Positions 32,733-38,652 of a DNA stretch of 64,000 nt are shown one piece after another (position 1 is the first letter of the stretch; each line of letters opens with the position of its first letter). Under the pieces are notes generated by a model, which was not told where the DNA came from, did not search any database, and saw nothing but the letters and a program-made list of their open reading frames with translations. Source of the stretch: Alcanivoracaceae bacterium (GTDB taxonomy: Bacteria; Pseudomonadota; Gammaproteobacteria; Pseudomonadales; Alcanivoracaceae); NCBI GenBank assembly GCA_029213045.1, contig JARGPN010000010.1, positions 372,001 to 436,000 of the forward strand. Reading direction: 5' to 3'. A program made the position numbers and the translations under genes.

Positions 32733-33614
32733 ATGCCGGAAGATGTCACCGACAACGGCACAGGTCGAAGTTGGCTGGAGCGAATCGGTCAGTTTTTTAC
32801 TAGCGGGCCCAGCTCGCGTGATGAACTCAAAGAGCTGATTCGTTCCCTGAGAGACCGTGACATTATCGACCATGAAACCCACGGCATCATCGAGGGTGGA
32901 TTGCAGGTTGCGCAAATGCAGGCGCGAGAAGTAATGATCCCGCGCACGCAGATGATCGCTATTCGCGCAAACTGCTCACCCAAAGAATTTCTGCCCACTA
33001 TTATCGAATGCGCCCATTCTCGCTTTCCTGTACTGGGTGACGATTTCGATGAAATAGTGGGTATTTTGCTCGCCAAAGACTTACTTCCCTTAGCGCTTGA
33101 TCCAGCAAAAATAGAACGCTTTTCTATCAAAGATCACGTTCGCAAAGCGCTGATCATCCCCGAATCGAAACGCCTAGATTCCTTGCTGCGCGAATTTCGC
33201 ATCAGTCAGAATCACATGGCCATCGTCGTCAATGAATATGGCGGCATCGCCGGGCTGGTCACCATCGAAGACGTCTTAGAGCAAATCGTCGGCGAAATTG
33301 GCGACGAGCACGACTTCGACGAAGATGAATACTTAATTAAAGATCTTGGCCACGACGAATACACAGTGAAAGCGCTCACCCCTGTTGATGAGTTCAACGA
33401 GCATTTTCAGTGCAATCTGAGTGATGACGAGTTCGACACAATCGGCGGATTAGTTCTGCAACGCTTCGGCAGACTGCCAGCCAGAGATGAATCTGTTTCA
33501 TTCAGCGGATTCCGCTTTACAGTCCTCAGCGCAGATGGCAGAACAGTAAGGCTGCTGCGGGTTTCACCAGAAATTGAGGAAATAGAACCCGGATTGGACA
33601 GTCAATCAGGCTAG
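32733..33614 (+). CDS. corC: CorC family Mg/Co efflux-associated protein (YbeX)
   Basis: A 293-residue cytosolic protein with a pair of CBS domains (about 70-190; AREVMIPRTQM, GIAGLVTIEDVLEQIVGEI) and a C-terminal CorC_HlyC/transporter-associated domain (EFNEHFQ ... TIGGLVLQRFGRLP). It lacks the membrane DUF21 domain, as is normal for YbeX. It is linked to magnesium homeostasis and ribosome maturation. In relatives lnt follows directly; here two other genes intervene. Confidence 0.94.
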   Translation: MPEDVTDNGTGRSWLERIGQFFTSGPSSRDELKELIRSLRDRDIIDHETHGIIEGGLQVAQMQAREVMIPRTQMIAIRANCSPKEFLPTIIECAHSRFPVLGDDFDEIVGILLAKDLLPLALDPAKIERFSIKDHVRKALIIPESKRLDSLLREFRISQNHMAIVVNEYGGIAGLVTIEDVLEQIVGEIGDEHDFDEDEYLIKDLGHDEYTVKALTPVDEFNEHFQCNLSDDEFDTIGGLVLQRFGRLPARDESVSFSGFRFTVLSADGRTVRLLRVSPEIEEIEPGLDSQSG

Positions 33615-33675: not shown

Positions 33676-35151
33676 ATGTTGCCAAAGCCAGATGTGGAGT
33701 CGCTCGACGGCAAACTCAGCGTAAAGCAGAGTTTGAAGACGGTGCCGTGGGTGTGTCTCGCTTTTTTCGTTGCGTACTTGAGCATTTTTCTCGTATACCA
33801 AAAAGACGAACAACAAGACCAACTTGTCCTTGCTCAGTGGTATCAAAAAAGCGGCCTTTTCGAACTTGAATGGGAAAACTATATTTCATGGCTGCGCATC
33901 AGTGGCCAAGTTAAAAAGGCCGACGCACTTCAACAGGCACGCACAGCCAAAGACACCCTTACCGTTTTTCGCGCCATGGCATTCGATCCCTCTTTTGAAC
34001 GGGAGAACCGACTGCGCGGCGACCAATATTGGAATTCGGACCAGCGCATCAAGTGGGAACAAACACGGCAGGAATTCAGCCAGCGCTCCGCAGAATTACC
34101 GTCTGTTCGATTTGGCTTGAACCCGCAAACCCCACGTCCCTCAACCTATCTAACGTGGCACTTCCTTCATGATTCGCTGTGGCAATGGCTTGTCGCACTG
34201 CTGGTGCTCGCGCCCTTTGCTTGGGCGGTTGAAGGCACTGTCGGCGCAAAGCGCATGGCCATATTATGGATCAGCAGCGGCATTGCTGCCGGGCTCTCCT
34301 ATGTCGCATTTGTCCCGTGGGGCTATCAGCCTTTAGTGGGCGCCACACCGATTACGTCTGCCATTATCGGCATGTTTTTAGGGCTGTTTGCGCTGCGCAA
34401 GATTCCTTTTGTGTATTTCAATCCAAAGCAAAAAAGTTTCGCCGACATCATGCTGCCCGGCGCCATCATTGCACCGCTCTGGTTGGTGCTCCCTATTTAT
34501 GAATATTACGGCGGCAGCGACGCCCCCTTTGTGTGGGTAAGCCAGCTTGCCGCCTTGATTGCAGGATTTGGCCTAGTGCAGCTTGCCCGCCCCGCAGATG
34601 TCGCCGGAACGGAACAAGAACAATCCGATGACACCGACGACAACGGTCACAAACAACTTCGCCAGCATCTGACCTCCGCATGGGCATCCATGTCGGCCTT
34701 ATCATTTATGGATGCAGAAACCGAATTCAAGCGCGCGATAGAATTAAGCCCCGGCCACTTTATTGCGCTGTCAGGCCTTTATCAGATATACAAACTTGAT
34801 CCCGAAGCGGAAAGATTTCACAGCACCGCATTAGACGCACTGCAAGCCAATGTGGACAACGAAGGTGAAATTCGTCAGCAGCTTTCGATTTACCGCGATT
34901 ACATAAAATTTCTCGACGAAGAACAATCATTACCGCTCGATACCGAGATCAAACTGTTGATGCGCTTTACGCGTCTGGGCGAATTGAAGGATGCGGAAAA
35001 GCTAGCGGTCAAGATCAATAAGTCCGGCGCGAATCACGCGCTATTAGAAAAAGCGCTCAGCGCATTAGGGCAGGCATTTGCGCAGCACAACAATTCCACC
35101 AAAGCAGCTCACTTTGCAAGCTTGGCGGAGAATGTGAAGATGAGAAAGTAA
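33676..35151 (+). CDS. rhomboid-like pseudoprotease with helical-repeat tail
   Basis: A 491-residue membrane protein. After an N-terminal helix (about 23-40) and a soluble loop region, residues 158-305 resemble the rhomboid core: LTWHFLHDSLWQW, WAVEGTVGAKRMAILW, SSGIAAGLSYV. The catalytic elements are missing: the GxSG motif reads GATP (222-225), the helix-6 His position reads Gln (WVSQLAALIAGF), and the oxyanion His/Asn in helix 2 are not kept. It should therefore be inactive as a protease. Residues ~335-491 are helical repeats (TPR-like), preceded by an acidic linker. AAGGGGA precedes the ATG. It sits between corC and a convergent zinc-finger protein gene. Function unknown. Confidence 0.8.
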   Translation: MLPKPDVESLDGKLSVKQSLKTVPWVCLAFFVAYLSIFLVYQKDEQQDQLVLAQWYQKSGLFELEWENYISWLRISGQVKKADALQQARTAKDTLTVFRAMAFDPSFERENRLRGDQYWNSDQRIKWEQTRQEFSQRSAELPSVRFGLNPQTPRPSTYLTWHFLHDSLWQWLVALLVLAPFAWAVEGTVGAKRMAILWISSGIAAGLSYVAFVPWGYQPLVGATPITSAIIGMFLGLFALRKIPFVYFNPKQKSFADIMLPGAIIAPLWLVLPIYEYYGGSDAPFVWVSQLAALIAGFGLVQLARPADVAGTEQEQSDDTDDNGHKQLRQHLTSAWASMSALSFMDAETEFKRAIELSPGHFIALSGLYQIYKLDPEAERFHSTALDALQANVDNEGEIRQQLSIYRDYIKFLDEEQSLPLDTEIKLLMRFTRLGELKDAEKLAVKINKSGANHALLEKALSALGQAFAQHNNSTKAAHFASLAENVKMRK

Positions 35152-35189
35152 TCGAATAGTATTTTATAAAAACATTTTTCACTGAGTAT

Positions 35190-35222
35190 AAAAAAGCGAA
35201 CCCGACATCAGGTTCGCTTTTC
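35190..35222. terminator. bidirectional intrinsic terminator
   Basis: Stem AAAAGCGAACC / GGTTCGCTTTT with loop CGACATCA between two convergent genes; A/T runs suit both directions. Confidence 0.92.
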
Positions 35223-35236
35223 CAACCTAGGACCAA

Positions 35237-36652
35237 TTAACCTTTCTGCAACCCCAGATCAGTGCGGCACTCCGCCGCCAGCTGCTGCGCTTTCGGCTCA
35301 CGAAACCGCGTCTCGACAAAGCGAATATATTGCTCGGCTTTACCGGCCAAATTAAATTCTTTTTTCAACAACGAAGCGACAAATAAATAGGCTTCCGCCA
35401 AGCCAGGCCATGTCGGCGCGCGTTTGTGTAAATCCAGCAGAATGTTGAGTGCGACTTTGGCCTCGCCATTTTCCGCCAGCAACTTTGCCACGTCCCACGT
35501 CGATTGCGCGGTGGCAGGCCTGAACCCAGCATCCATTTGCCGATAGCGCCTGACCAATTCAACCACGCGATATTCTTGCTGGTTATTCATCAGCAAATCG
35601 AGGTACCGACTGGCGTGCTCTAGCTGATCCTCTTTGCGCCCTAGCGCGGTCAGTAGCTTTTCATATTGCTCATTGAGTGACAGTGAGCCGCCTTTTTTTT
35701 CCAACTTAAGCTTATACGTGGATACAACCTTGTCGTACTTCCCTTCACGCAATAGCACAGCCTGACGTCGCTCATCTTCCGGTTTGCGCGCACGCCGCTG
35801 ACGCATGGCCGTCTCGTCTTGCAGCGGCGACAAATAGCCGAGCTTTTCACGATGCTGACAAATCAAATAGCCGAGTAAATGAGCGGTCAAAAAGAAAAAC
35901 CAACCGACAATTACGGCCGACGCGGGAAGTCCGATAAAACTCGGCAACAGGTCGTAGAGCACACTGCAGACAATTGATACGCCGATAAACGTCGCAAAGA
36001 GAAATAGCGCCGCAAGAAAATAATCTACGCCAACGACGGCCAGCGTATTTAACAAACGTTGCGGTGCCAGACACGCGGCGATATTCCCGTCCAAGACCAC
36101 TTGCAATAAAGCCAGCGTTAACCAAAACCATGCCAACAAAGCAATGCCAGCGCCTTTGAGCATGCCGAAATAGAAAAAACCGTAGCCTAATGCGACTAGG
36201 CCTCCGGCAAATAACAACCAAAACTGTGCGCCCTTGGCGTAGAACTCTTGCTGCTTCACCACTGTGTATTCTGGCGGCCGCATACGCGCGCCCGCAGAGT
36301 ATTCAACAATGGCAGCAGCCAAAAAACCCAGCGGCAGACCCAGCGCCACGGCAATGCCCACACCAACCCAATTCGGTGGCGCCACAGCGCACAACACCGC
36401 CACAGCAAGCACGATCACCATCGGGTCACGACTCATTGGGTATTGCACAAAATGCGATAAAATCTTCCAGAATGGATCCTGCGCAACCTGACGCCCGGTT
36501 TGCTTCAGCGCTTTATTGCAAATGAAGCAACGCGCGCGGCCACTGTCGGCGGCCTCATCAGATGCCACACAATCTTCACAAAAATGCACGCCGTCGTCGG
36601 GGCAATACCAACTTGCCTGAACCCCCGGATGGTACTTACAGGTATGTTTCAT
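35237..36652 (-). CDS. B-box-like zinc-finger membrane protein with helical-repeat tail
   Basis: A 471-residue protein. Residues 1-48 form a zinc-binding module with ligand spacing C5-x2-H8-x8-C17-x7-C25-x2-C28-x13-C42-x2-C45, like prokaryotic B-box fingers. Residues ~77-265 contain about six or seven membrane helices. The C-terminal ~190 residues are helical and TPR-like. GGAG lies before the ATG. It is convergent with the rhomboid-like gene and divergent from lnt by 76 nt, so it splits the usual corC-lnt operon. Domain parallels with its neighbour (membrane core plus TPR-like tail) suggest the two may work together; this is inference. Confidence 0.8.
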   Translation of the reverse strand: MKHTCKYHPGVQASWYCPDDGVHFCEDCVASDEAADSGRARCFICNKALKQTGRQVAQDPFWKILSHFVQYPMSRDPMVIVLAVAVLCAVAPPNWVGVGIAVALGLPLGFLAAAIVEYSAGARMRPPEYTVVKQQEFYAKGAQFWLLFAGGLVALGYGFFYFGMLKGAGIALLAWFWLTLALLQVVLDGNIAACLAPQRLLNTLAVVGVDYFLAALFLFATFIGVSIVCSVLYDLLPSFIGLPASAVIVGWFFFLTAHLLGYLICQHREKLGYLSPLQDETAMRQRRARKPEDERRQAVLLREGKYDKVVSTYKLKLEKKGGSLSLNEQYEKLLTALGRKEDQLEHASRYLDLLMNNQQEYRVVELVRRYRQMDAGFRPATAQSTWDVAKLLAENGEAKVALNILLDLHKRAPTWPGLAEAYLFVASLLKKEFNLAGKAEQYIRFVETRFREPKAQQLAAECRTDLGLQKG

Positions 36653-36728
36653 TATTCTTCTCCGCGACGATGCGTTTGGCTAAGCGCTTTCTTTACTAAC
36701 TTCTTAATGCAAAAGGCTTCTTTTCTCA

Positions 36729-38225
36729 ATGCAAAAGCGATTGACCGCCCTAATTGCCGGACTGCTGTACCCTTTTGCCTTCGCGCCGTATGAACTTTGG
36801 CCACTGGTCATCGTCAGCATTGCCCTGTTTTATAGGTTACTGCAAGGCACTCAAAGCAAAGAAGCCGCATGGATAGGTTTTTGCTACGGCCTAGGCGTGT
36901 TCGGTTATGGCGTCAGCTGGTTGTACGTCAGTGTGCACACCTATGGCGGTACGCCAATCTGGCTTGCGGTGCCTCTGACTGCTTTGTTCTGCGCTACGTT
37001 AGCGCTATACGCTTCTTTGCTGGGCCTGCTGAGTGCGCAACTCAAGCACCACGCGCTCGCCTTTGTTGGGCTCTGGTGTCTCGTCGATGTTTTCAGAGGG
37101 TGGTTTTTAACTGGCTTTCCGTGGCTATACCCTGGCTATGCACTCATCGATACGCCGCTGGCAAACCTCGCCACCGTTGGCGGCATTTGGTTAGTCTCGC
37201 TAGCCACTGTGTTGTCAGCCGTGGCGCTGGCAACCGTTCGATTCTGGCAACGACAATGGCTCTACCCGCTAGCCGCGGCAGGGGCGTGGATTCTCTCTTT
37301 TTTCATTTCGCCACAATTATGGGTCACGCCCACCACCGACAAGATGACCGACGTCGCGCTAGTGCAAGGCAATATTCCGCAAGACATCAAATGGCTGATG
37401 ACCCAACAAAGCGCCACGCGGCAAATTTATGCTGACCTCACTGAACGCGTCGCCAACAACATCCAACAACCCACGCTAGTGGTCTGGCCCGAATCTGCGA
37501 TTACCGAGTTTTATCAAGACGCCGTGCCCTTTTTGCAGGCGCAAGGAGAGCGTGTCGCAGAAAAAGGCGGTGCCTTAATCAGCGGCATGCCGTGGCGCGT
37601 CAATCAAATGCATGGTTATCAGTTTTATAACAGCATTGCCGTCGTGGATGGCGGTCAAGGCGTCTACCACAAACAAAAGCTGGTTCCCTTTGGCGAATAT
37701 GTGCCGCTCGAAGATGTGATACGCGGTGCGATTCCCTTTTTTGATTTGCCAATGTCGAGCTTTACCCGCGGCACACCTACACAAGACAATCTTGGTGCGC
37801 TTGGTCTCACTATTGCCCCGTTTATTTGCTATGAAGTGTTGTATCCTGAGCTAGTCTCGACACGGAGTCACAATGCTGAAGTGATGCTCACGGTCAGCAA
37901 CGATGCATGGTTTGGCACGTCTGACGGCCCTTGGCAGCACTTTCAAATGACGCGCATGCGCACATTAGAAACGGGGCGCTGGTTACTGCGCGGCACGAAT
38001 AACGGCGTCACCGCTGTGATTGATGCAAACGGCAAAGTGCGCGACCAATTGCCACAATTTGAACGTGGCGTGTTAACCAGCCGCTTCTTACCGGTGGCCG
38101 GAGAAACACCGTTTATGCGCACCGGCGGATGGCCTTGGTGGCTATTGGCGGCGCTATTCTGTATTCCGGCGTTGCGCAGAGTTATTTCAAGCTCGCACAG
38201 TGAGCGGAGCAATAAGGAGTCATAA
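36729..38225 (+). CDS. lnt: apolipoprotein N-acyltransferase
   Basis: A 498-residue inner-membrane enzyme that adds the third acyl chain to the N-terminal Cys of lipoproteins. It has an N-terminal membrane bundle (about 7-195) and a nitrilase-like periplasmic domain with the triad Glu255 (WPESAI), Lys315 (HKQKLVPFGE) and Cys367 (FICYEV). A final helix lies near the C-terminus. It needs its own promoter here because the upstream gene points the other way. The 76-nt gap before it is AT-rich with no clear boxes. Confidence 0.96.
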   Translation: MQKRLTALIAGLLYPFAFAPYELWPLVIVSIALFYRLLQGTQSKEAAWIGFCYGLGVFGYGVSWLYVSVHTYGGTPIWLAVPLTALFCATLALYASLLGLLSAQLKHHALAFVGLWCLVDVFRGWFLTGFPWLYPGYALIDTPLANLATVGGIWLVSLATVLSAVALATVRFWQRQWLYPLAAAGAWILSFFISPQLWVTPTTDKMTDVALVQGNIPQDIKWLMTQQSATRQIYADLTERVANNIQQPTLVVWPESAITEFYQDAVPFLQAQGERVAEKGGALISGMPWRVNQMHGYQFYNSIAVVDGGQGVYHKQKLVPFGEYVPLEDVIRGAIPFFDLPMSSFTRGTPTQDNLGALGLTIAPFICYEVLYPELVSTRSHNAEVMLTVSNDAWFGTSDGPWQHFQMTRMRTLETGRWLLRGTNNGVTAVIDANGKVRDQLPQFERGVLTSRFLPVAGETPFMRTGGWPWWLLAALFCIPALRRVISSSHSERSNKES

Positions 38226-38226
38226 C

Positions 38227-38652
38227 ATGAGCGAATTTAAGAAGTTAACTGACCAGCTTTTCGTTTCCGCGCAACTTAGCCTTGATGATATTCAAGCGGC
38301 GAAAGCGGCTGGCTTTAAAACCATTATCAACAACCGCCCGAACAATGAATCCGACGATCAACCGGACGGTGCAGAGATTGAGAATGCGGTGCGCAATGCC
38401 GGCCTAGCGTATTACCACCAGCCCGTTGTATCGGGGCAAATTACTGATGAAAACGTCGACGGATTCGGGCAACTACTTAGCAGCGTGGAAGGACCTACAT
38501 TAGCGTTTTGTCGCACCGGCACGCGCTGCACGTTTTTATGGGCGCTTAGCCAAGCCGCGCACGAGGAATTGCCCGAGCTGGCCAACAAAGCAGCCTCGGC
38601 GGGATATGACTTATCGGGGTTAATGCCGCGCCTGTTGCAACGCAAAGCCTAG
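38227..38652 (+). CDS. TIGR01244-type phosphatase/sulfurtransferase domain protein (DUF442)
   Basis: A 141-residue protein of the DUF442/Blh-like family, structurally a dual-specificity phosphatase-like fold. The P-loop is CRTGTR (CxxxxxR-like), with FKTIINNRPNNE near the start. The true substrate is not known; in other bacteria the family sits near sulfide or lipid metabolism genes. AAGGAG lies 9 nt before the ATG. It starts one base after the lnt stop, so it is probably co-transcribed. Confidence 0.85.
   Translation: MSEFKKLTDQLFVSAQLSLDDIQAAKAAGFKTIINNRPNNESDDQPDGAEIENAVRNAGLAYYHQPVVSGQITDENVDGFGQLLSSVEGPTLAFCRTGTRCTFLWALSQAAHEELPELANKAASAGYDLSGLMPRLLQRKA

Follow-up and report, generated by a model that had tools for sequence, protein, structure and literature searches.

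A rhomboid that lacks the catalytic dyad, paired with a B-box-like membrane protein between corC and lnt in an Alcanivoracaceae bacterium

Two genes that converge between corC and lnt in an Alcanivoracaceae bacterium almost certainly belong together as a pair, and the rhomboid protein encoded by the first of them has, with the same confidence, lost its catalytic dyad. We call the pseudo-rhomboid gene A and its partner, which encodes a membrane protein with a B-box-like zinc finger, gene B. Our explanation is that A and B are two parts of one inner-membrane system, and the whole of it is given a probability of about one half. Judging from the sequences, the pair at corC-lnt (pair 1) is an inactivated lineage of a system made of an active rhomboid and B. 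The rhomboid fold is a known one, whereas the two-gene system, of which one branch is dead, seems to be undescribed.

To our knowledge, few bacterial rhomboids have an assigned function, and fewer still have a dedicated partner. No description of the A-B pair was found in a search of the open-access literature. A 2025 review of rhomboids (PMC12615303), in the part considered here, discusses pseudoproteases for eukaryotes, namely Derlins and iRhoms, and in that part makes no mention of a bacterial pseudoprotease with such a partner.

Organization of the corC-lnt locus

The window (the whole stretch of DNA analysed, 64,000 nucleotides) comes from a genome of 3.17 Mb that is 99.9% complete. In a scan of the genome collection with a narrower alignment, which gave seven named relatives, the closest were Alcanivoracaceae and Alcanivorax records. 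An earlier note, made from the letters of the window, had placed two facing genes here, and both open reading frames (ORFs) were confirmed (Table 1).

Table 1. Coordinates of the pair and its surroundings in the window
Feature	Position	Strand	Basis
Gene A, pseudo-rhomboid	33676-35151	+	491 aa; ORF and Pfam Rhomboid, 2.1e-10
Gene B, B-box-like zinc finger membrane protein	35237-36652	-	471 aa; ORF, Pfam match below threshold
corC (CNNM/CorC family)	32733-33614	+	ORF, family profile match
lnt (apolipoprotein N-acyltransferase)	36729-38225	+	TIGR00546, 291.7 bits
Bidirectional terminator-like stem	35190..35222		between converging A and B
Spacer between divergent starts of B and lnt	36653..36728		promoters of both expected here

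The gene corC lies 61 bp before A on the same strand, and the two may be co-transcribed. The stop codons of A and B are 85 bp apart. Within this gap an 11-bp stem is preceded by a run of A and followed by a run of T, which supports the bidirectional terminator that had been suggested; the z-score of the fold is -3.05 on the plus strand and -4.39 on the minus strand. B and lnt are divergent with their starts 76 bp apart, so lnt needs its own promoter, as had also been argued; a consensus scan found no consensus sigma-70 site in this spacer, a result that says nothing either way on promoters. The end of lnt is overlapped by a small gene (38200-38652 of the window) that encodes a BLH-phosphatase domain, and a relative of it is near lnt in several related genomes.

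In relatives that lack the pair (L218-L220) corC is immediately 5' of lnt, so the description of A-B as interrupting corC-lnt is accurate. The order corC > A > < B < lnt > of the window is kept in 20 of 20 family loci fetched: in every one of them A is immediately preceded by corC, which has the same orientation (tblastn), and lnt adjoins B. A replacement of corC by another gene in five related loci was considered and rejected, because the gene in question is an antisense open frame and tblastn shows corC in all 20. Insertions seem, from the loci compared, to be tolerated between the two convergent genes. Six loci (L068 and L076 to L080) carry one to three extra genes between A and B.

Pairs elsewhere have other neighbours, so the corC-lnt position was probably fixed once in one family, as a single ancestral insertion. 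This bears on the idea that the pair acts on the envelope pathway to which its neighbours belong, for example by controlling CorC or Lnt. The constancy of the slot in the 20 related loci speaks for it, and so does the fact that a magnesium transporter is cleaved by YqgP, a rhomboid with TPRs (PMC7231995), CorC being of the CNNM family, a link to which we give little weight. Intact pairs elsewhere stand beside unrelated genes, however, with no steady partner among their neighbours, and one insertion followed by vertical descent is enough to explain the location, which makes control of CorC or Lnt quite improbable. For the same reason the lipoprotein-linked processing proposed in the earlier note was not supported, whereas its proposal that the pair forms one system was.

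Gene A is a rhomboid that has lost its dyad

Gene A belongs to the rhomboid superfamily: residues 157-300 match Pfam Rhomboid (PF01694) with 41.4 bits against a curated cut-off of 22.6, and intact relatives reach 93-105 bits. Six transmembrane (TM) helices are predicted, at about residues 24-44, 168-189, 191-212, 221-240, 262-278 and 286-304. By hydropathy and charge, both ends are predicted to be inside, the N-terminus is short, and loop 1, of about 125 aa (residues about 43-165), is predicted to be periplasmic; the tail (330-491) is TPR-like and predicted to be cytosolic from the helix count and the positive-inside rule. In place of the GxSG of proteases TM4 has GATP, and in place of their AHxGG TM6 has SQLAALIAG; both the TM4 Ser and the TM6 His of a catalytic rhomboid are missing, and "pseudo-rhomboid", the term used at first reading, is apt. 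Compared with solved structures, the profile of A matches GlpG (1.5e-5) and the pseudoprotease iRhom2 (1.7e-5) about equally.

The dyad was counted in an alignment of 64 A proteins. None of the 21 pair-1 proteins, the window included, keeps the TM6 His, and 20 of them have lost the Ser, the sole exception (L066) having a Ser in a ruined motif, GSSA. By contrast, 30 of 31 distant A proteins and all 12 A proteins from a second pair of the same family have an intact Ser/His dyad. The only dead distant A (L172, genome G081, L228:5724-9293) has both residues replaced; it comes from another family and has a very diverged B adjacent to it. In the A tree it joins pair 1 (97), on a very long branch that leaves the placement unsure.

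In six close comparisons, dN/dS is 0.04-0.17 for pair-1 A and 0.03-0.15 for pair-1 B, near the 0.09-0.18 of lnt, so pair 1 is under purifying selection and is not decaying. Such selection, together with the residues E65, E186, G190 and G222 (in loop 1, TM3 and TM4) that are conserved across dead and intact A, might mean that pair-1 A is still an enzyme with a different catalytic arrangement. We consider this highly improbable, as the TM2 HxxxN motif, the TM4 Ser and the TM6 His have all gone, with replacements that differ between genera, and no new conserved Ser/His/Asp set was found in the A alignment.

Gene B and the tail shared with A

The finger of B spans residues 1-56, with ligand-like C5, H8, C17, D20, C25, C28, C42 and C45. 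Residues 3-29 match zf-B_box (PF00643) with an E-value of 1.0e-4 and 22.8 bits, under the cut-off of 24.1, and thus the cautious wording "B-box-like" was right; B of Desulfosarcina, with 18.4 bits, is also below this cut-off. The spacing of the last two ligands departs from that of B-boxes. Of the pair-1 B proteins, 14 of 21 have all eight predicted ligands (CHC[D/C]CCCC), as do 12 of 12 pair-2 B proteins; ligand 4 is Asp in every pair-1 B and Cys in the second pairs and most distant B. Seven of the 21 pair-1 proteins have lost the second site (C42, C45), and the whole finger is absent from some distant B (L182-L185). The finger is therefore not central everywhere, and what stays constant in B is the membrane core together with the tail.

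The membrane core covers about residues 75-265 and the TPR-like tail about 290-471; by hydropathy and charge the helix number is even, and finger and tail are both predicted to be cytosolic. Several B and the A of Desulfosarcina exceed the cut-off for TPR_14, TPR_19 or TPR_6, which places them in the TPR family, and the window B alone has a TPR match of 14.7 bits, below cut-off. The tails of A and B are homologous to each other (hhalign 96.3%, E 1.6e-9, 136 columns). AlphaFold models of A and B are of middling quality (pTM 0.53 and 0.43), with helical tails that agree with this; Foldseek searches with both models returned TPR folds only, the PDB matches being generic TPR proteins, and gave no match in the PDB for the membrane core of B. 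The architecture first proposed for each gene, a multi-helix membrane core followed by a helical-repeat tail, is thus borne out by the predicted helices and TPR-like tails. Besides, two distant B show a weak similarity to DUF4013 (0.0025 and 0.017, below cut-off), neither gene is covered by an NCBIfam model, and no relative of intact B was found in plasmid records.

Co-occurrence and gene order

An A was called full-length when it covered at least about 390 of the 472 profile positions. In the family sample (46 genomes) the same 30 genomes have both genes and 16 have neither, with no exceptions. Full-length A was found in 31 genomes of the order sample (146 genomes), where B is in 32 and accompanies A in all 31; in the class sample (229 genomes) B is found with 18 of 18 full-length A, the B of one genome (G406) being a weak partial match that adjoins A. 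B without A occurs in one genome of the order sample (G116) and two of the class sample (G306 and G365), and full-length A without B in none of the three samples. This absence is the main point, rather than the Fisher p-values (1.0e-12 for the family, 6.6e-31 for the order, 8.1e-25 for the class), which are descriptive only since the samples overlap slightly and the genomes are related. The earlier note would have called the pairing accidental if the genes did not co-occur elsewhere; they do so strongly across Gammaproteobacteria and in Desulfosarcina, and are mostly linked. In G116 the B-like match (G116:C356:88008-89066) falls within what looks like an open frame 24,364 codons long.

Among 32 distant loci with both genes, 25 are convergent, 7 are co-directional (six with A then B, one with B then A) and none is divergent. 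Three genomes of one genus (G111, G169, G142) have A and B far apart and keep both. Unlinked A (L223:5086-8800, L224, L225) is divergent from ihfB and near lapA-lapB. A convergent pair with an intact dyad is also present in Desulfosarcina widdelii, which belongs to another phylum. The pair is absent from many related genomes and hence not generally essential.

A second, intact pair in the same genome

The host genome of the window contains another convergent pair, separate from the first (G000:C11:213655-216397, equal to L082:6656-9398), whose rhomboid has the full dyad and whose B has all eight predicted zinc ligands. Pair 1 forms one clade in the A tree (99) and in the B tree (95), and so does pair 2 (100 and 99). 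The two pairs were considered as recent duplicates, a view that was dropped since the clades are separate and not sisters; the long pair-1 branch leaves the depth of their split uncertain.

Both pairs are present in the host genome (G000), in G040, G039, G034 and G038, and in most g2 genomes, and catalytically lost paralogues often regulate active kin. Pair 1 could accordingly regulate pair 2, the dead rhomboid competing for substrates or for the partner. Twelve genomes have pair 1 without pair 2 (G001, G002, G009, G015, G016, G033, G035, G036, G037, G042, G043 and G045), however, and the two clades are not those of recent duplicates, and we regard such regulation as unlikely.

The distances in the A tree and the B tree correlate at 0.93 overall and at 0.73 without the own family, where 0 of 2000 permutations were as high. 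Congruence is partly expected for linked genes; from the sequences, we take it that A and B have travelled together. Linked genes share histories, and co-inheritance without shared function, or a decaying A, would be an alternative. It is hardly credible and largely refuted by the several orientations, the retention of both genes when unlinked, the lack of A-only genomes in three samples, the two independent pairs and the low dN/dS.

A possible function of the pair

In the explanation preferred here, A and B would work as one inner-membrane system, in whose common form A would be an active rhomboid protease and B its dedicated partner, which brings a zinc finger, a membrane core and a TPR tail. 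In the lineage of the window, A would have lost the catalytic dyad while both proteins were maintained. Its rhomboid fold may still bind the transmembrane segments of clients, without cutting them. The predicted topology suggests that A and B could associate through their membrane cores and their related cytosolic TPR arrays, and the zinc finger and TPRs of B might recruit a soluble or ATP-dependent cytosolic factor. Membrane clients would thereby be captured or regulated without proteolysis, as with other rhomboid pseudoproteases. Such a role in handling clients is put forward tentatively, at somewhat less than even odds, and quality control of membrane proteins, which had been suggested from the letters of the window, is possible.

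A partner that is never missing offers a direct handle on the job of this rhomboid subfamily, and an intact and a dead pair in one genome are a natural experiment. If the dead pair works, rhomboid pseudoproteases could be studied through it in a bacterial model amenable to genetics.

Comparison with known systems

iRhom is an inactive rhomboid that serves as cofactor of ADAM17. Like A, it has a rhomboid fold without the dyad, is kept by selection and acts with a partner, as A is proposed to do. A differs in that it is bacterial, has a TPR tail, lacks the iRhom homology domain (there is no cysteine in loop 1 of the window A) and has a partner that is not a metalloprotease. LapB (YciM), a membrane TPR protein with a zinc site and an adaptor of FtsH, is reminiscent of B in its membrane anchor, its TPRs and its zinc site, which in B is predicted. 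Unlike LapB, B has a core of several helices and carries its B-box-like finger at the N-terminus, and the weak Foldseek match between them (E 8e-3) reflects generic TPRs only.

For presentation without cutting, the best precedent is YqgP (GluP) of B. subtilis, which presents MgtE to FtsH, its own activity being dispensable in that role (PMC7231995). YqgP and A both join a rhomboid and TPRs in one chain, and part of the work of YqgP needs no catalysis (PMC7231995). YqgP is, however, active; its N domain is large, cytosolic and metal-binding and its TPR tail is extracellular (PMC7231995), neither of which is found in A, where the N-terminus is short, loop 1 is large and the tail is predicted to be cytosolic. 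No B-like partner of YqgP is reported in the literature examined.

GlpG and Rhom7 carry out quality control of orphan subunits in Shigella (PMC7232013). A has the same fold, and the A of the second pair keeps GlpG-type dyad motifs, whereas GlpG has no long loop 1, TPR tail or B partner, and the A of the window appears inactive by motif. GlyGly-CTERM proteins are reported in Alcanivorax (PMC3237569), and rhombosortase is, like A, a rhomboid with a specialised system; against its model (TIGR03902, cut-off 84) the second-pair A scores only 34.2 bits and pair-1 A has no match. A mycobacterial paper on a B-box and a rhomboid was set aside as precedent, because there the B-box is a weak extra domain within the rhomboid and not a partner. 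A and B could represent a widespread, undescribed system of Gram-negatives that joins a rhomboid-TPR protein to a zinc finger-membrane-TPR protein; a little under an even chance is allowed for this view, in which the dead version of Alcanivorax-like bacteria would be a convergent counterpart of the iRhom and Derlin pseudoproteases, with its cofactor encoded next door.
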